From positions 124,001-188,000 of the forward strand of contig JAIQFS010000006.1 of assembly GCA_020073145.1 (NCBI GenBank): DNA of 64,000 nt. Direction: 5' to 3'. Positions within the stretch are counted from its first letter, which is position 1. Each line of letters opens with the position of its first letter. Source of the DNA: Terriglobia bacterium (GTDB lineage: Bacteria > Acidobacteriota > Terriglobia > Bryobacterales > Bryobacteraceae). The position numbers and the translations under genes are program-made. The notes beneath the pieces were generated by a model that saw only the letters and a program-made list of their open reading frames with translations, had not been told where the DNA came from and did no database searches. Below are positions 1,839 to 38,893 of the stretch, in pieces.

Positions 1839-3233
1839 ATGAGCGAACAGGAAAAGATCGACCGGGTTTTGAAGAAGTACCCGTGGGATCACCAGACGTT
1901 CTTCAACCGCCCGCACTGGACTCGCCGCCAGTTTTTCCAGGTGGCGGGCGCTGGGGTCACCGGAGCCTTTCTGGCCGAGCGGTACGCCAAGGCGGCGGAG
2001 GTGACCAATTCCGGAGCTACTACCCTCAACACCGCCAAGAACGTGATCTTCATTCTGCTGGCGGGAGCGCCCAGCCACACCGATACCTTCGATCTCAAGA
2101 TGGTGAGCGGCGTGACTCCCACCACCTTTGCGCCGCAAACCATCAACAACGTCCTGTGGCCCACGGGCCTGCTGCCGAAGCTCGGCGCGCAGCTTTCCGA
2201 TTTTGCTTTGGTGCGATCCATGCACGCGCACGCGCTGGTGCACTCTCTCGCCCAGACCTGGACTCAGATCGGGCGCAATCCGGCGGCGGCGTTGGGCAAC
2301 ATCGCTCCCAATATCGGCAGCGTGGTGGCGATTGAAAAGGAAGCGGACCGCCTGCCGGGACAGGTGTTCCCAACGTTCCTGGCGCTGAATTCGGGCGCGG
2401 GCGTCGGTGCCGGGTATTTGCCCGCAAGCTACGCTCCCTTCAAGGTCATCCCGCGCACCACCGGCATTCCGAATACCACCAACCCGGACGGTCAGACGCG
2501 ATTCACCACTCGCTGGAATCTGATGCATTCCCTGGACGACACCTTGCGCGTCAACTCGCCCGACGGCAAGCCGATGCAGGACTACAACGACTTTTACAGT
2601 TCGGCTCAGGCCATGATGTACAACCCCTCGGTGAACCAGGCCTTCGGCTTTACCACCGCGGATAGTGCTCGCTACGGCACTACCAGCTTAGGCAATGCCT
2701 GCCTGGTGGCGGTGCAGGTTCTCAAAGCGCAGCAGGGCACGCGTTTCGTCCAGATCACCTCCAACGACGGATGGGACATGCATTCCAATATCTACTCTGC
2801 CACCGCCGGTCTGCCGGCCAAAGGCGCGATTCTGGACAATGCGGTTTCGGCGCTGCTGAGCGACTTACAAGCCAACGGGTTGTTCGACAGCACGCTCGTG
2901 GTGATGGCGGGAGAGTTCGGCCGGACCGTCGGACCGCTTTCGGCGGCGGCGGGCCGAGATCACTACCTGCAGCAGTTCGCCTTCTTCGCGGGCGGCGGCG
3001 TGAAGGGCGGCCGCGTCGTCGGCGCTACCAATGCGCTGGGGTCGGACACGGTGGACTACGGCTGGTCTCAAAGCCGTTACGTGTACGCCGAAGACATCGA
3101 AGCCACCATCTACTCGGCGATGGGGATCGATTGGACCTCCGTTCGCCACGATGATCCGCTCGGACGCGGCTTCGAATACGTCCCGACCACTGGCCCGTTC
3201 CAGTTTGCGCCGGTCAACGAGCTGTTCGCGTAA
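1839..3233 (+). CDS. DUF1501 family protein with Tat signal
   Basis: 464 residues. A twin-arginine export signal is visible at residues ~28-50 (TRRQFF followed by a hydrophobic Gly/Ala-rich stretch), preceded by a 27-residue charged lead. The body has the DUF1501 hallmarks: LLAGAPSHTDTFDLK early on, SNDGWDMH in the middle, and VVMAGEFGRTVG near the end. This is the alkaline-phosphatase/sulfatase-like superfamily, so metal-dependent hydrolysis is possible, but no substrate is known. It starts 13 bp after the DUF1549 gene, so the two are almost certainly co-transcribed and exported together. The start ATG lies after a GGCAGAGGG Shine-Dalgarno-like stretch. Confidence 0.88.
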   Translation: MSEQEKIDRVLKKYPWDHQTFFNRPHWTRRQFFQVAGAGVTGAFLAERYAKAAEVTNSGATTLNTAKNVIFILLAGAPSHTDTFDLKMVSGVTPTTFAPQTINNVLWPTGLLPKLGAQLSDFALVRSMHAHALVHSLAQTWTQIGRNPAAALGNIAPNIGSVVAIEKEADRLPGQVFPTFLALNSGAGVGAGYLPASYAPFKVIPRTTGIPNTTNPDGQTRFTTRWNLMHSLDDTLRVNSPDGKPMQDYNDFYSSAQAMMYNPSVNQAFGFTTADSARYGTTSLGNACLVAVQVLKAQQGTRFVQITSNDGWDMHSNIYSATAGLPAKGAILDNAVSALLSDLQANGLFDSTLVVMAGEFGRTVGPLSAAAGRDHYLQQFAFFAGGGVKGGRVVGATNALGSDTVDYGWSQSRYVYAEDIEATIYSAMGIDWTSVRHDDPLGRGFEYVPTTGPFQFAPVNELFA

Positions 3234-18772: not shown

Positions 18773-19594
18773 ATGGCTGCAATGAGCGTCATCTGGTTGC
18801 GCGTGGCTGTGGCGTTGTACTCGCTCGGCCTGTTGCATTCCATCCTCATGCTGGTCCGGCGTCGCGAGCAGTTGTACCACGTCGCCCTGGGCGCCTTTGC
18901 CCTGGGGGCCGTTTTCCACTTCGTCTCGATTGTGGACGAAGGCATTCTGACCAACCGCTGCCCCATCACCAACACCTTCGAGACCCTTTCCTTCTGTTCA
19001 TTTCTGGTTGCAGTTCTGTATCTCTTCATTCAGTGGCGCTACAAGATGGAGAGCCTGAGCGCGTTCATCTTTCCCCTTGTATTCGTCATGTCGCTGATCG
19101 GTACGCTGGGCAACCCGGTCAGTGCCTGGACCAGTCCGGTGGTGCGCAATGCTTGGCTGACCGTCCACATTGTCCTGGTCCTGCTCGGTTTTGCGGCGCT
19201 GGTGGTCACTGCCGTGGCGTCTCTGCTCTATCTCTTTCAAGAGCGGGAGCTCAAGGCCAAGAAGCCGCGCAAGTTCTACTATCGCTTGCCCGCTCTCGGC
19301 ACGCTGGATGACCTGATCTCTAAATCCATGGCCATCGGCTTCGTCCTGATGACCCTCGCCGTCATTGCTGCCAGCACCTGGGCGTTCATCGAAATGAAGG
19401 CCGGCTGGATCAGCCAACCCAAAATCGCCATTTCGTTTTTCACGTGGGGGATTTATCTGGTCCTGGTGTGCCTGCGCACCACGGCGGGCTGGCGCGGGCG
19501 CAAGGCCGCTCTCATGACCGTTGCCGTGGTGGGTTTCTCGATCCTCACCTGGGCGGCCCACTCCAGTCTGGGCGCTCTGTTGCAGAAGCAATGA
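18773..19594 (+). CDS. ccsA: CcsA/HemX-like cytochrome c assembly membrane protein
   Basis: 273 residues, eight membrane segments. Belongs to the CcsA/CcmC/HemX superfamily; the haem-handling part is recognised by conserved His in HIVLVLLGFAAL and AHSSLGALL and by loop residues NTFETLSF. In hemX-hemA operons this protein controls glutamyl-tRNA reductase level or moves haem to c-type cytochromes. The WGxFWxWD motif of true CcmC/CcsA is not evident, favouring the HemX-like branch. Its stop overlaps the hemA start (ATGA), which implies translational coupling. Start chosen at ATG 18773; ATG 18782 is possible. Confidence 0.85.
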   Translation: MAAMSVIWLRVAVALYSLGLLHSILMLVRRREQLYHVALGAFALGAVFHFVSIVDEGILTNRCPITNTFETLSFCSFLVAVLYLFIQWRYKMESLSAFIFPLVFVMSLIGTLGNPVSAWTSPVVRNAWLTVHIVLVLLGFAALVVTAVASLLYLFQERELKAKKPRKFYYRLPALGTLDDLISKSMAIGFVLMTLAVIAASTWAFIEMKAGWISQPKIAISFFTWGIYLVLVCLRTTAGWRGRKAALMTVAVVGFSILTWAAHSSLGALLQKQ

Positions 19595-32523: not shown

Positions 32524-33539
32524 TGCGCGTCGGCATCCTTGGCACCGGAGCCGTCTCTCGCAAACACGCCGAAGCCTATCGGAATATCGGGTATGAGCTC
32601 GTGGCCTGCAGCGGTCTCGATCCCTCGCGCGGCCAGGTCTTCGCCGCGCAGCACCGGTGCGAACACGTCGAACGCTGGCAGGATCTCTGCCGTCACCCCC
32701 GCGTCGATTTCGTCGACCTCTGCACCTTCCCCGATTTCCGGCTCGAGCCCGTCGCACTCTGCGCCCAGGCGGGAAAGCCGGTGCTCATGGAGAAGCCCAT
32801 CTCCGTCACGCTCGAGTCCGCCCGCCGCATGCTCGATGCGGCTCGCGCAGCCGGCATCCTGCTGGGCGTGGTCAGCCAGCATCGATTCGATGTCGCCAGC
32901 CAGTTTCTCAAGCGCGCCATCGACGCCGGCCGGCTCGGCGCTCTTCTCCAGGCCGACGCCTATGTCAAGTGGTACCGCCCGCCCGTCTATTATGCGCGGC
33001 CCGTCAAAGGAACCTGGGCGGTCGAAGGCGGCGGTGCCCTCCTCACCCAGGCCGTTCATCAAGTCGATCTGCTGCTCTGGCTGGCCGGACCGGTCCGCCA
33101 CGTCTCCGGCGAATGGCAGCTCGGCGCGGTCCACCGCATGGAATCTGAAGACGTCGTCAGCACCGTGATGCGATACGCTTCCGGCTCCACCGGGGTCCTC
33201 CAGGCGGCCACCGCGTTTTGGCCCGGCCTGCCCGAGCGCCTCGAAATCCACGGCACATGCGGCGTCGCCATTCTCACCGGCGATCAGCTCACCACTTGGG
33301 AAGTCCAGGAGGACGCCGGCGAACCCCCGCCGCTTTCCCAAGCCCTCCAGTCCGGCGCAGCCGACCCGCTCGCCATTTCCCTGGCCCCCTTCGAACGCCA
33401 GTTCCTCGATTTCGGCGCGGCCATCGAAGCCGGCCGCCCGCCCTTGGTCGCGGGCGAGGATGGGTATCGCGCGCTGGCGCTGGTCGATGCCATTTATCGC
33501 TCGTGCCGCGAGGGCCGCAGGATCGCGCTCGATGCCTGA
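32523..33539 (+). CDS. Gfo/Idh/MocA family oxidoreductase
   Basis: 338 residues. N-terminal Rossmann motif GILGTGAVSRKHAEAY; the family signature EKPI in VLMEKPISVTLESARRML near residue 90; C-terminal substrate domain with GGGALLTQAVHQVDLLLWL, holding the probable catalytic His. NAD(P)-dependent oxidation or reduction of a sugar or cyclitol is expected. It overlaps the PLP enzyme gene by 1 bp (TGATG), so it is part of the same operon. Confidence 0.93.
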   Translation: MRVGILGTGAVSRKHAEAYRNIGYELVACSGLDPSRGQVFAAQHRCEHVERWQDLCRHPRVDFVDLCTFPDFRLEPVALCAQAGKPVLMEKPISVTLESARRMLDAARAAGILLGVVSQHRFDVASQFLKRAIDAGRLGALLQADAYVKWYRPPVYYARPVKGTWAVEGGGALLTQAVHQVDLLLWLAGPVRHVSGEWQLGAVHRMESEDVVSTVMRYASGSTGVLQAATAFWPGLPERLEIHGTCGVAILTGDQLTTWEVQEDAGEPPPLSQALQSGAADPLAISLAPFERQFLDFGAAIEAGRPPLVAGEDGYRALALVDAIYRSCREGRRIALDA

Positions 33540-33582
33540 CCGCCGGGGGCATGATAGGATACTCCCTCGGAGGGTGCAATCG

Positions 33583-34029
33583 ATGAATCCCAGGTTCCGG
33601 TTCGGCCGTTGGCTGGTGCTCTTGATCCTTGGCGCGGTCTTGGTCGTGGCTTCCGCATTCCGGATCCTGAAGGCCCAGCAGAAGCCGAACTCCAACTTCA
33701 CGGGCGGCGTCGTGACGCGGTTGGATGAGAAACCCGAGGGCAATATTGCCCATTTCCGCTTTGAGCCTGGGTCTCGCACCAAGTGGCACAGCCACGCGGG
33801 CGGGCAGATCATCCTGGTGGAAGAAGGGGTCGGCCTCTATCAGAACCGGGGCGGCCCGGTCATGGAATTGCGCGCCGGCGAAACCGTATATTGCCCTCCC
33901 GGCGTGGAGCACTGGCATGGCGCGGCGCCCCACCAGGGTGGTGTCCAATACAACATCAGCCGCGGCGGCATCACTTGGCTCGAAGAAGTCACCGACAAGG
34001 ATTTCAACACGCCCCCGCAACATAAGTGA
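33583..34029 (+). CDS. membrane-anchored cupin protein
   Basis: 148 residues. N-terminal signal anchor at residues ~9-26 (WLVLLILGAVLVVASAF) and a single cupin domain. Metal ligands are clear: His-x-His in TKWHSHAGGQIILVEEG with the Glu after, and the second motif PGVEHWHGAAP. This is the type common in quercetinase/carboxymuconolactone-associated small cupins. Preceded by GGAGG at 33569-33573 about 9 nt before the ATG. Lies 43 bp after the Gfo/Idh gene, same strand. Function unknown; may be a dioxygenase or a binding protein. Confidence 0.88.
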   Translation: MNPRFRFGRWLVLLILGAVLVVASAFRILKAQQKPNSNFTGGVVTRLDEKPEGNIAHFRFEPGSRTKWHSHAGGQIILVEEGVGLYQNRGGPVMELRAGETVYCPPGVEHWHGAAPHQGGVQYNISRGGITWLEEVTDKDFNTPPQHK

Positions 34030-34069: not shown

Positions 34070-34729
34070 CTATTTCTCTGGCAGCAGCGGCTTGCGATCC
34101 GCCGGTAAGTGCTGATCGGCGGCGGTCAAGATTACAGCGGCCATCGCGAAATCCCCCATCACCCCGGCCACCTCGAGCGCCCCCTGCTTCCCGAACAGAG
34201 ACACCGCCTTGGCGAACACCGCCGGGCTCACATGGTGCTGCCGAAAAACTTCCCGGCCCATCCGAATCACCGTCGCTTCTTTTTCGGGCAGCCCCGCAAC
34301 GTCTTTATTGAACTTCACCACGTCGATCGTCGATTGATCCAGCCCGGCGCGCAGGCCGCCCGTCTCGTGTCCGGTCCATTCGTACTGCTGGTCGAACTCC
34401 CGCGCCGTCACCAGCGCGCACAATTCGAAATAACGCCGGCCGATCACGCTCTCGTCCCGCAGGTATAGGTTGATCCGCTGCATGGGCTCGGCGAACTGGG
34501 GGCTATGCAGCGAGAGCCCGCCCGGACCCATCAGCGGCGTGGTGCGGTTGGTCCCCGCCACCAGGTCGTAGACCCGCTTGCCGTTCTCGTCCAGATCGGC
34601 GCGTTGCACCACCGGAAGACGCGCCAGGGACTCCGGCAGTACGTCGGCCGGCAGCGCCTGCTTTCCCGACTGGCCGTCCATCATCGCGGCCATCGCCGTC
34701 AAAGCCGCCGCCCACACCAATGTTCGCAT
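34070..34729 (-). CDS. exported carboxymuconolactone decarboxylase (AhpD-like) protein
   Basis: 219 residues. A short signal peptide (RTLVWAAALTAMAAMM) and an alpha-helical CMD fold: LCALVTAREFDQQYEWTGHE corresponds to the AhpD active-site helix, but the CxxC pair is replaced by a Glu/His pattern, so it is not a peroxidase. Proteins of this type are frequent in Solibacter genomes. Convergent with the cupin gene (40 bp apart), divergent from the ankyrin gene. Confidence 0.85.
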   Translation of the reverse strand: MRTLVWAAALTAMAAMMDGQSGKQALPADVLPESLARLPVVQRADLDENGKRVYDLVAGTNRTTPLMGPGGLSLHSPQFAEPMQRINLYLRDESVIGRRYFELCALVTAREFDQQYEWTGHETGGLRAGLDQSTIDVVKFNKDVAGLPEKEATVIRMGREVFRQHHVSPAVFAKAVSLFGKQGALEVAGVMGDFAMAAVILTAADQHLPADRKPLLPEK

Positions 34730-34767: not shown

Positions 34768-34776
34768 TGTTATAAT
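34768..34776 (+). promoter_or_regulatory. extended -10 promoter, TGT-TATAAT
   Basis: A perfect TATAAT (34771-34776) with the extended TGn motif at 34768-34770. Start of transcription would be near 34783, leaving a ~16-nt leader before the ATG at 34799. This rules out the in-frame ATG at 34775, which lies inside the -10 box. Extended -10 promoters need no -35, and none is seen. Confidence 0.6.
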
Positions 34777-34798: not shown

Positions 34799-36760
34799 AT
34801 GCTGCAGAAGTTAGTGGCGGTAGGAGCAATTCTGACGACGGGTTGGGTCGGTGCTCGCGCCGAGGATAATGCAGCCAGGCTCTATTCCGTCATTCGCGCC
34901 AATGATCTCACCGGGCTCAAAATGCTCCTCGATCAAGGCATCGGTCCGAATACCCCCGATAGCCGGCAAATCACGCCCTTGATGGTCGCCGCCGAGATCG
35001 GGTCGGTGGACGCCATGAGCCTGCTGATTGCGCGCGGCGCCGATGTCAACGCCCAGAACGCTTCCGGCTCCACCGCGCTCATGTGGTCGGTCACCGATGC
35101 CCGGAAGATTCGGCTGCTGCTCGATCACGACGCCGACGTCAACCGGGCCGCTCGCAGTGGGCGCACGGCCCTGATCTTGGCGGCGTATACCAATCCCTCC
35201 TCGGAAGTGGTGCGGCTCCTGCTCGCAAGAGGCGCGGACGCCAAGGCCATGGATAAGCGGCAGGAAACCGCGGTGAATGCCGCCGCCTTTGGCAACGACA
35301 CCGCGGCCCTTCGCCTGTTGGTGGCCGCTGGCGGCGATGTCAACCAGGCCGAAACCTTCATCGGCTGGACTCCGCTCATGAACGCCGCCGGTAACGGCAA
35401 CTTGGAAGCCGTGCGCTTTCTGTTGTCCAAGGGCGCCAAGGTCAATGCCGTTTCCATGCGCGAACATTTGCCGCAGGTGAAGAATGGAACCGTGGCGTTT
35501 GGAGGCTTCACCCCGTTGCTCACCGCCGCGGCCTTCGCGCCGCCGGAGCTCGTCAAGACCCTCCTGGACGCCGGCGCTGAAGTCAATGTGGCGGATATTC
35601 GCGGCTTCACGCCCTTGATGCTGGCCATCGGCACCGACCGCCAGAACCCCGAGAACGTGCGCCTGCTGCTGTCCCACGGCGCCGACACCCACGCTCAGAA
35701 TCTGGATGACGAGACGGCCCTGGATTGGGCCCGCAAGATCGGCACGTCCCGCACCATCGAAGCGCTCGGCGGCAGTTCCAAGCCGCTGGTGCGAACCATT
35801 TCCGCCGCGGACACACCCGCCCTCCGGACGGCGGTGGAACGCAGCGTCGGTCTCCTCGAGAAGACCACCGCGCAATTCTTCCAAAAGAGCGCCTGCTTCG
35901 CCTGTCACGAGCAGGTCGCGGCCGACATCGCGGCGACGGCCGCGCATGCCAAGGGGATCGCCGTCGACCAGAAGGCGGCAGCCGAACGGCAGCGGCAGAC
36001 CGTCGGTCTGAATCCTTCCGGACCCACGTCGATGGAAGGCCCGGCCCCTCTGGGCGGCGCGGACAATGCGCTGTATGCCGCCGAGGATCTGGTCCGGACC
36101 GGCTACGCACCCAATCCACAGACCGATTTTCTCGCCGCCAACCTCGCCATGCAGCAGGCCGCCGACGGCAGCTGGCGCTTGGGCGGCTACTCGCGCAGTC
36201 CGATGCAGGACAGCAATTTCTCCCGGACCGCCATGGCGCTTCGTGCCTTGAAGGCCTACGGCACGCCCGGCCGCGACGCCGAAATGAAGGCGCGCATTGA
36301 GCGCGCCAAACAGTGGCTCCTGCACGCTGAGCCCGTCATCCTCGAAGACTGCGATATGGCCCTCCTCGGAGTGTCTACCGCCGGTGCCGGCCGCGCCGAG
36401 CTGCAGAAGCTGGCCGAACCCATCCTCGCGCGCCAGCAGCCCGATGGCGGATGGGCCCAGCGGGATGCCTTCCCCAGCGATGCCTACGCCACCGGCATGA
36501 CCCTCACCGCGTTGGCCGATGCCGGCATCCTGCAGCCCAGCCAGGAAGCCTATCGCAAAGGCGTCCGCTTCCTGCTCTCCACGCAGGCCGTCGATGGCTC
36601 CTGGCACGTCGTCAGCCGCGCCACCAAGTTCCAGCCGTATTTCGATAGCGGCTTCCCCTACGATCACGACCAGTGGATCTCCACCATGGCCACCGCCTGG
36701 TCGGTGAATGCGCTCGCCCTTGCCATCGACGCGCCGGCCGCGGTCGCGGGAGTCCGTTAA
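34799..36760 (+). CDS. secreted ankyrin-repeat / CxxCH / QW-repeat fusion protein
   Basis: 653 residues. Signal peptide (LVAVGAILTTGWVGARA). Residues ~30-335 hold about eight ankyrin repeats (GSTALMWSVTDARKIRLLL, GFTPLMLAIGTD and others). A single c-type haem motif Cys366-x2-Cys369-His370 follows in SACFACHEQ. Residues ~440-645 contain terpene-cyclase-like toroid repeats with QW motifs (QQAADGSW, QQPDGGW, QAVDGSW). The DxDD catalytic motif of squalene-hopene cyclase is not seen, so the toroid probably binds rather than cyclises. Periplasmic location implied. Promoter at 34768. Confidence 0.85.
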   Translation: MLQKLVAVGAILTTGWVGARAEDNAARLYSVIRANDLTGLKMLLDQGIGPNTPDSRQITPLMVAAEIGSVDAMSLLIARGADVNAQNASGSTALMWSVTDARKIRLLLDHDADVNRAARSGRTALILAAYTNPSSEVVRLLLARGADAKAMDKRQETAVNAAAFGNDTAALRLLVAAGGDVNQAETFIGWTPLMNAAGNGNLEAVRFLLSKGAKVNAVSMREHLPQVKNGTVAFGGFTPLLTAAAFAPPELVKTLLDAGAEVNVADIRGFTPLMLAIGTDRQNPENVRLLLSHGADTHAQNLDDETALDWARKIGTSRTIEALGGSSKPLVRTISAADTPALRTAVERSVGLLEKTTAQFFQKSACFACHEQVAADIAATAAHAKGIAVDQKAAAERQRQTVGLNPSGPTSMEGPAPLGGADNALYAAEDLVRTGYAPNPQTDFLAANLAMQQAADGSWRLGGYSRSPMQDSNFSRTAMALRALKAYGTPGRDAEMKARIERAKQWLLHAEPVILEDCDMALLGVSTAGAGRAELQKLAEPILARQQPDGGWAQRDAFPSDAYATGMTLTALADAGILQPSQEAYRKGVRFLLSTQAVDGSWHVVSRATKFQPYFDSGFPYDHDQWISTMATAWSVNALALAIDAPAAVAGVR

Positions 36761-38098: not shown

Positions 38099-38125
38099 TA
38101 TGTCTGAGGATTGAGGAGACGCGTT

Positions 38126-38893
38126 ATGAGAATCCAGTTCTGGAGTAGGGCTGCAGTGGCGACGGCCGCGTTGGCGATGCTCTATCTCGCGCTGCCATCG
38201 GCCGCGCAGGAAGACCGCCCGTATGAGCCGCCCAAAGGGCCGGCGCCGCGCTTGTGGAACGGCAAGCCGGACTTTCGCGGTGTCTGGCAAACCCCGCGCA
38301 TGGCCGACATCACCAAAGACGAGCGCTGCTGCAAGGGCGTCAAGGATCTTCCGTTCACGCCCTGGGGCAAACAGCGTTGGGAGAGTTACGACGCAGCCAA
38401 GGGCGACTATGCCGGCAGCTGCCTCCCGTTCGGCTTGCTCCGTTCCGTCGGCGGGCCGCACCCCGTCCAGATCATGCAGGACGACCGGTTCATCACGATG
38501 CTCTGGGAGCAGAATACCTGGTTTCATGTCACCCCCATCGACGGCCGCCCGCATCCCAAGGACCCCGATGCCACCTGGTTCGGGAACTCGGTAGGACATT
38601 GGGAAGGCGACACCCTCGTGATCGATACCATTGCCTTCAACGGAAAAACCCGAATCGACACCATCGGCCATCCCCACAGCGATCAGCTCCACACCATCGA
38701 GCGTTTCAAGCGCCGCGACCTGGGCCACATCGACTACGTGCTCACCATCGACGACCCCAAGACCTTTACCCGGCCCTTCGATAGCGTGCGCGTCTGGACC
38801 CTGCGGCCGGACTGGCAGATCATGGAGTACTCCTGCGAAGAGAACAACAAGGACCTCACCGAAGGCCACATCAAACCGGGAGTCAACCCCTAA
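38126..38893 (+). CDS. secreted protein of unknown function (Solibacter-type)
   Basis: 255 residues. Starts at ATG 38126 after a GAGGAGA Shine-Dalgarno; an in-frame TTG at 38111 lies on that site. Signal peptide ATAALAMLYLALPSAAQ. Body has PDFRGVWQTP, a Cys-rich ERCCKGV, PFGLLRSVGGPHPVQIMQ, and GNSVGHWEGDTLVIDT, a pattern seen in a large acidobacterial paralogous family of exported proteins. No catalytic motif known. It overlaps the MetE-C-like gene by 1 bp. Confidence 0.8.
   Translation: MRIQFWSRAAVATAALAMLYLALPSAAQEDRPYEPPKGPAPRLWNGKPDFRGVWQTPRMADITKDERCCKGVKDLPFTPWGKQRWESYDAAKGDYAGSCLPFGLLRSVGGPHPVQIMQDDRFITMLWEQNTWFHVTPIDGRPHPKDPDATWFGNSVGHWEGDTLVIDTIAFNGKTRIDTIGHPHSDQLHTIERFKRRDLGHIDYVLTIDDPKTFTRPFDSVRVWTLRPDWQIMEYSCEENNKDLTEGHIKPGVNP

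Follow-up and report, generated by a model that had tools for sequence, protein, structure and literature searches.

A candidate c-type haem attachment motif within a predicted terpene-cyclase-type toroid fused to ankyrin repeats in an acidobacterial protein

Squalene-hopene cyclase (SHC) consists of two domains and carries a DxDD acid, and the repeats of cyclases may bear acids where an inner helix begins. The SHC-like proteins 8PAJ and 8PAK from myxobacteria and MstE from Scytonema have the same one-domain, six-hairpin type of alpha/alpha toroid, of about 350 residues, as the protein described here. Among exported haem proteins, the di-haem peroxidases, MauG and the rubber oxygenase RoxA each hold one relay haem and one open haem in the chain. 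Small relay cytochromes usually have a distal His or Met, and where this ligand is a Met it commonly belongs to an MP motif. Both c-type cytochromes and the toroids of terpene cyclases have a long history of study, but no alpha/alpha toroid that has a c-type haem attached inside it is known to us. A literature search of titles and abstract openings, which covered few subscription papers, returned nothing on such a protein, and Pfam and NCBIfam scans of the protein and of eleven relatives matched only general domain models.

The present analysis concerns one gene in a 64,000-nucleotide stretch of DNA (the window) from a soil-type bacterium, the product of which joins a likely signal peptide, an ankyrin repeat array and a toroid with a CxxCH motif (Table 1). 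The reading favoured here, tentatively and without our calling it probable, is that of a c-type haem protein that is exported, has an open iron at the toroid mouth, carries out redox or peroxidase/oxygenase-like chemistry and docks through its ankyrin arm.

The window gene and the predicted fold of its product

The window protein has full-length homologues, the closest of which is 68% identical (among 31 aligned). Its N-terminus, MLQKLVAVGAILTTGWVGARA, is signal-peptide-like when read by eye and a crude heuristic concurs. Both bear out the export proposed in an earlier sequence-only reading, and the protein is probably periplasmic or located at the surface. The same heuristic returned signal-peptide-like starts for 62 of 79 family ORFs versus 192 of 540 neighbour ORFs, the search range being narrower for the latter. 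An exact TATAAT lies at 34771-34776, 22 nt 5' of the ATG at 34799 and inside the 69-nt gap to the divergent gene. Its position would favour the start at 34799 over the in-frame ATG at 34775. A full sigma-70 site was not found by the promoter scan.

Table 1. Features of the toroid gene and of selected neighbouring genes, in window positions.
Feature	Residues	Position	Strand	Basis
Gene: signal peptide, ankyrin array and CxxCH-toroid, 653 aa		34799..36760	+	ORF translation
Likely signal peptide, VGARA|ED	1-21	34799..34861	+	Sequence reading and crude heuristic
Ankyrin repeat array	about 22-325	34862..35773	+	Pfam Ank_2, E 8.4e-48
Six-hairpin alpha/alpha toroid with haem motif inside	336-645	35804..36733	+	AlphaFold model
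CFACH, candidate c-type haem attachment, turn of hairpin 1	366-370	35894..35908	+	Sequence and model
QW-type motif, hairpin 3	449-459	36143..36175	+	Sequence, alignment, model
RSP	466-468	36194..36202	+	Alignments
QW-type motif, DGGW, hairpin 5	543-552	36425..36454	+	Sequence, alignment, model
DAYATG, start of inner helix 5	561-566	36479..36496	+	Alignment and model
QW-type motif, DGSW, hairpin 6	593-602	36575..36604	+	Sequence, alignment, model
Divergent ORF without Pfam match, upstream of toroid gene		34070-34729		
Cupin, upstream of toroid gene		33460-34029		
Cytochrome c assembly protein, about 15 kb upstream of toroid gene		18971-19549		PF01578 over cut-off

The ankyrin array scores 161.3 bits against Ank_2, over the Pfam cut-off of 27.3. 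In the full-length model (pLDDT 88.5, pTM 0.89) it forms about nine helix pairs, extending to residue 322, and model residues 23-330 align with the DARPin 6mol at Z 25.9 (VIA-align; 286 aligned, rmsd 2.7), so the count of about eight repeats made from the sequence was a fair one. The pTM of this model suggests that the array and the toroid pack together in a defined way. The host genome is rich in further ankyrin ORFs, of about 500-700 aa, and a comparison with the whole window protein gave 57 matching stretches. The three of these ORFs that were read (L004, L006 and L007) are without CxxCH.

Residues 325-653 are predicted by AlphaFold as a single-domain toroid, with a mean pLDDT of 90.8 and a pTM of 0.90. 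The hairpins, which we paired ourselves from the helix list (residue numbers are model numbers plus 324), comprise helices 336-364/372-384, 391-403/420-433, 440-451/473-487, 490-509/515-527, 532-543/562-574 and 583-595/622-641, and the QW motifs are placed in the turns of the third, fifth and sixth. From SHC structures, we take the first helix of each pair to be the outer one and the CxxCH and QW turns to lie at the end of the toroid where class II cyclases have their catalytic acid. The top Foldseek matches are 8PAK (E 6.6e-7) and 8PAJ, followed by SHC and drimenyl diphosphate synthase, and the best PDB matches include OSC beside SHC. In VIA-align, 1w6k (271 aligned, rmsd 3.2), 8paj and 8pak all reach Z 22.8, and 2sqc reaches Z 21.9, or 22.2 when the toroid part of the full-length model is used. 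The best cyclase-type matches span Z 21.5-22.8, and complement thioester domains and GH105-type glycosidases follow at Z 19-21. Whether the C-terminal part is some other fold had been raised beforehand; in AlphaFold, Foldseek and VIA-align alike it models as a toroid. At the level of domain models, SQHop_cyclase_N barely reaches its Pfam cut-off (26.3 versus 26.2 bits), and SQHop_cyclase_C and Prenyltrans stay under theirs.

Since the nearest folds of the toroid are class II cyclases, the protein might be a working, exported class II terpene cyclase that uses a different acid. We consider this very improbable. The DxDD motif occurs in 0 of 89 rows and 0 of 56 further members of the family and is missing from paralogue P0003. 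A motif search of the window protein returned none either, which agrees with the earlier description of QW repeats without DxDD. The window protein also scores under the cut-offs of the curated squalene/hopene cyclase models (TIGR01507, 22.3 versus 431.1 bits; TIGR01787, 35 versus 322.7 bits). The cyclase reading was rejected for the absent motif and the failed cut-offs, and the view that the protein is something other than a cyclase, already taken from the sequence, stands because the cyclase acid is missing. In addition, export would presumably separate the protein from cytosolic isoprenoid precursors, and the genome already contains a separate SHC-like gene (C18) with DIDDTA, which is without CxxCH in the 634 residues covered. 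Generic domain labels could misname such proteins squalene-hopene cyclases despite the missing acid.

The CxxCH motif and the case for haem

The window protein has one CxxCH in its predicted-exported chain, CFACH, at the residues where the sequence-only reading had located a single motif. That reading had placed it ahead of the toroid. The motif is indeed present, but in the model it lies inside hairpin 1, between helices 336-364 and 372-384. Because it occupies the turn of hairpin 1 as the QW motifs occupy those of hairpins 3, 5 and 6, CxxCH is part of the toroid and not of a linker. Which hairpin it replaces rests on the model helix order, since hhalign against another QW-type protein of the same genome aligned only 63 columns.

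Conservation of the motif was followed in two sets. The first, of 87 modules, derives from a scan of named genomes with an SDAYATG-like and a QxxDGSW-like pattern, neither of which includes CxxCH. It comprises 87 matches, minus one weak and two incomplete modules, plus three rows from the host genome; of the incomplete modules, one reads N over CxxCH and the other starts later, at a contig end. The second consists of 56 further, non-redundant members from profile searches, including relatives as weak as E 2e-13. All of the aligned modules (87 of 87) have CxxCH. So do 55 of the 56 further members, and the remaining one begins beyond that segment; the alignments used for the profile searches contained CxxCH and may favour its carriers. 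Most of the 87 modules are only 32-47% identical to the window module, and, as the search patterns were free of CxxCH, the conservation of the motif is above chance.

A candidate covalent c-type haem would be attached through C366, C369 and H370. Across the segment with CxxCH, the toroid profile matches a cytochrome c555 trimer chain. The E of 7.9e-8 is that of the chain as a whole, and each stretch taken singly fails to pass 0.01. Cytochrome c assembly genes are present in the genome, with three PF01578 matches over the cut-off, one of them inside the window. The motif might instead act without haem, by binding a metal ion or by forming a disulphide that staples hairpin 1, and for this it can be said that the Pfam scan of the window protein, listed up to E 10, returned no cytochrome family and that the toroids of protein prenyltransferases bind zinc. 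A His beside both Cys in 87 of 87 and 55 of 56 sequences is unexpected for a disulphide, however, and the likely export, the assembly genes and the PSCyt1 cytochrome domains fused in sister proteins also argue for haem, so that a haem-free CxxCH appears improbable.

Family, domain order and conserved sites

Three clear copies of the module occur in the host genome, namely the window gene and the paralogues on C79 and C21, together with a fourth, distant copy on C13 (E 6.7e-63, with CISCH and DGYATG). The scan of named genomes confirmed 141 loci, of which the best 80 were used; these are mostly from Acidobacteriota and Planctomycetota. In a phylum-wide sample the module was found in 13 of 396 genomes at E 1e-40. 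A survey of the class gave matches in 120 of 399 genomes at E 1e-10, of which the weak ones near 1e-11 may be true cyclases. Of 246 sampled Planctomycetota genomes, 43 match at 1e-10, and in 31 the best match reaches 1e-40 or lower. These counts may be low because each genome contributed only 5 to 13 scored candidates to the surveys. The further members drawn from the class and Planctomycetota surveys come from the best 30 loci of each. For L099, a Verrucomicrobiia record, a survey of its phylum at 1e-15 matched the seed genome alone (1 of 145). Among 72,556 plasmid records there was no match to the window module itself, and a single one, from Sphingobium, encodes a protein related to the distant member L120. 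This protein is 45% identical to L120, is annotated as a hypothetical protein and has CVSCH. Phage records gave no match to the module, and a viral origin was rejected, the one weak BFVD match (E 9.5e-4) being to a glucuronyl hydrolase. Two loci, L082 and L049, hold three haem-toroid gene copies each within at most about 14 kb, with differing domain orders; one of the three copies in L049 is partial.

The module is found in several domain orders. In a tally of 89 proteins, ankyrin plus toroid, the order of the window protein, recurs in 39, which answers the question of whether this order exists elsewhere. PSCyt1 plus ankyrin plus toroid was found in 21, toroid plus ankyrin in 14 and toroid alone in 15. 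Five of the toroid-alone proteins were regarded as cut, by a contig end or as a short ORF, and do not enter the tree label count. For example, the C79 paralogue has PSCyt1 (E 1.8e-12 in P0002), then ankyrins, then the module, and the C21 paralogue (P0003) has the module first and ankyrins after. Copies without ankyrins include L073 and L113, and stand-alone toroid members measure about 320-400 aa. In a quick tree of the 87 modules, the toroid plus ankyrin form (13 rows) is one group (SH-aLRT 99, 1 change), and the ankyrin plus toroid and PSCyt1 plus ankyrin plus toroid labels require 9 and 8 changes, respectively. The tally and the tree together indicate that the ankyrin link exists in both orders. 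The PSCyt1 label switched several times, partly perhaps through missed weak domains. The PSCyt1 forms carry two CxxCH per chain, and all of them (21 of 21) have an MP motif after the CxxCH of PSCyt1. A second CxxCH also occurs after the toroid in L170. In L095 (2261-4990) the haem toroid bears a transglutaminase-like N-terminus (E 1.5e-4), with Transglut_core at 22.4 bits, barely under the Pfam cut-off of 23.

A distal ligand was sought among the His and Met columns that follow CxxCH in the toroid. The best is H623 (45/87) in the aligned modules and position 621 (29/56) in the further members, so that neither set has a conserved distal His or Met; such a residue defines only six-coordinate c-type cytochromes. 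H623, H603 or H/Y621 could serve as distal ligands in subsets. Other positions are better kept. R466 and P468 of the RSP motif are both found in 87 of 87 modules of the close set, and P468 persists in 56 of 56 further members. SDAYATG is the best-kept site at any inner-helix start, with D561 in 52, Y563 in 48 and T565 in 55 of the 56 profile-found members, residue 563 otherwise being F (3), L (3), M (1) or H (1). For Y563 in the close set, 86/87 overstates the conservation, as one of the two patterns that retrieved the 80 loci was SDAYATG itself. The profile-found members lessen the weight on Tyr563 and strengthen that on CxxCH. By analogy, Tyr563 might stand in for the middle cyclase acid. 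This stays an analogy because the repeat alignments fix DAYATG to no one cyclase repeat: with 8PAK and 8PAJ it falls opposite DADST, in the better-scoring 8PAK alignment opposite STAFDT, and several different SHC repeats pair with it. A single common active site is not supported, since R466 (33/56), R607 (30/56), Q625 (32/56) and Y563 vary outside the close set. Positions reaching 3 bits number 34 of 93 in the turns on the CxxCH side versus 2 of 26 on the other side. With the CxxCH turn left out the difference between sides is not significant (Mann-Whitney, p 0.19), and higher conservation on the CxxCH side is suggestive only.

These data bear on whether the haem only passes electrons, with the toroid and ankyrins as scaffold and docking surfaces. 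Such an electron-transfer cytochrome would suit the fusion of PSCyt1 in 21 of 89 proteins, the one CxxCH and the occurrence of ankyrins on either side of the toroid, but a toroid without conserved distal His or Met is not what is usual for a relay, and the retention of P468, T565 and D561 points beyond a scaffold, though these may be kept for the fold. We regard pure electron transfer as unlikely.

The neighbourhood of the gene was compared as well. Downstream of it are an MFS transporter, an ORF without Pfam match and a Meth_synt_2 protein, and a flavin monooxygenase-like gene lies downstream on the opposite strand. Neighbour clustering over 83 sources, in which clusters of 4 or more sources were counted, returned no common partner, the largest non-family cluster being present in 7 sources. 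In 36 larger regions (L191, L219, L224 and L225 were left out because the family gene was not picked up), the strongest synteny is among five regions that share whole gene blocks including a FAD_binding_3 gene, and may reflect common descent only. A conserved operon partner was thus rejected, as none recurs widely in either comparison. In the syntenic Planctomycetota loci L192, L193, L194, L195 and L197, a FAD-dependent gene (PF01494 FAD_binding_3, E 9.7e-57 in L192) precedes a stand-alone haem toroid on the same strand. Elsewhere in the window, 1839-3230 encodes a DUF1501 protein (PF07394, E 7e-63) whose cluster is found in 5 of 83 sources, and 38111-38893 a likely secreted protein without Pfam match. 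An ORF resembling the latter in appearance (PDxxGVW) lies upstream of the C21 paralogue (L003).

The sequence-only reading had suggested a periplasmic sensor or carrier. In such a role, the haem or the toroid would bind a gas or a hydrophobic ligand, and the ankyrin arm would report or deliver it. A haem site that is probably open, a toroid fold that is that of terpene-handling enzymes and an ankyrin arm predicted to pack with the toroid are all in keeping with this. It is nevertheless a rather unlikely reading: the Pfam scan of the window protein lists no output domain, none of the neighbouring genes is a widely recurring partner, nothing was found that points to signalling, and some copies, such as L073 and L113, have no ankyrins. 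The missing distal ligand and the PSCyt1 fusions would fit a redox or peroxidase/oxygenase-like haem at least equally well.

Proposed function and comparison with known systems

The proposal of an exported redox or peroxidase/oxygenase-like haem protein was built on several computed results, namely the fold prediction, domain order, motif position, conservation and co-linkage. Export, haem attachment, open coordination and a haem facing the cavity are what we infer from them. One haem c would be held by C366, C369 and H370 at the turn of the first of six hairpins, in a single-domain toroid that would have the class II terpene cyclase fold with the DxDD acid lost. Since it would be attached in that turn, the haem would sit at one mouth of the toroid and share this end with the other outer-to-inner turns, which contain P468, D561-x-Y563 and the 596-621 turn. 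The iron is probably open, that is, five-coordinate or weakly ligated, because no distal ligand is conserved, and it may face the toroid cavity. There a ligand bound in the toroid, perhaps a hydrophobic one, could meet a site of redox or peroxidase/oxygenase-like chemistry; both the reaction and the ligand are our guess. The ankyrin array may act as a rigid docking arm for a partner. In the paralogues, the fused PSCyt1 would serve as a relay cytochrome within the chain and contribute a second haem, for which a Met is the candidate ligand. We favour such chemistry over pure relay, sensing or carriage with modest confidence.

A broader reading, which we regard as possible but doubtful, is that the family is a new class of c-type haem enzymes, in which a terpene-cyclase toroid was made into a haem-gated oxidoreductase. 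This large exported family would belong to Acidobacteriota and Planctomycetota, and Sphingobium would hold a distant relative. CxxCH would then have taken the place of the first QW turn, the catalytic acid would have been given up, and docking ankyrins and relay cytochromes would have been gained, lost and reordered. If haem binding holds, this is an unstudied exported haem family in the two phyla, and the wide spread of the relatives points to an unstudied kind of haem protein. The small stand-alone members make the family directly testable.

The known systems resemble the window protein in different respects. First, among haem proteins, PSCyt1 (PF07635, a planctomycete cytochrome domain) shares a chain with the toroid in 21 of 89 relatives, including P0002. 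It is a separate domain and is absent from the window protein. The two-haem arrangement of the PSCyt1 forms, and of these only, is reminiscent of di-haem peroxidases, MauG and RoxA. Those proteins have two CxxCH and the window protein has one, and no di-haem peroxidase, known haem enzyme or cytochrome is among the 50 Foldseek and VIA-align matches listed. Secondly, complement thioester domains and GH105-type hydrolases are alpha/alpha toroids like that of the window protein (Z about 19-21), but they are 8-14% identical to it and absent from the sequence matches, and we know of no haem in them. Third, 8PAJ/8PAK and MstE share 15-20% identity with the window toroid over about 270 residues (Z 19-23), and 8PAJ/8PAK also have QW-type repeats. 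The acid-rich DADST repeat of 8PAJ/8PAK corresponds to DAYATG of the haem-toroid family as a repeat-level match, not a positional one, and none of their alignments with the family covers the CxxCH segment. Unlike these proteins, the window protein is likely exported and is fused to ankyrins. Lastly, SHC of A. acidocaldarius (1SQC/2SQC) matches the 87-row profile at the repeat level (E 6.9e-29) and has the same toroid fold, whereas the window protein has one toroid, no DxDD and a CxxCH in hairpin 1.
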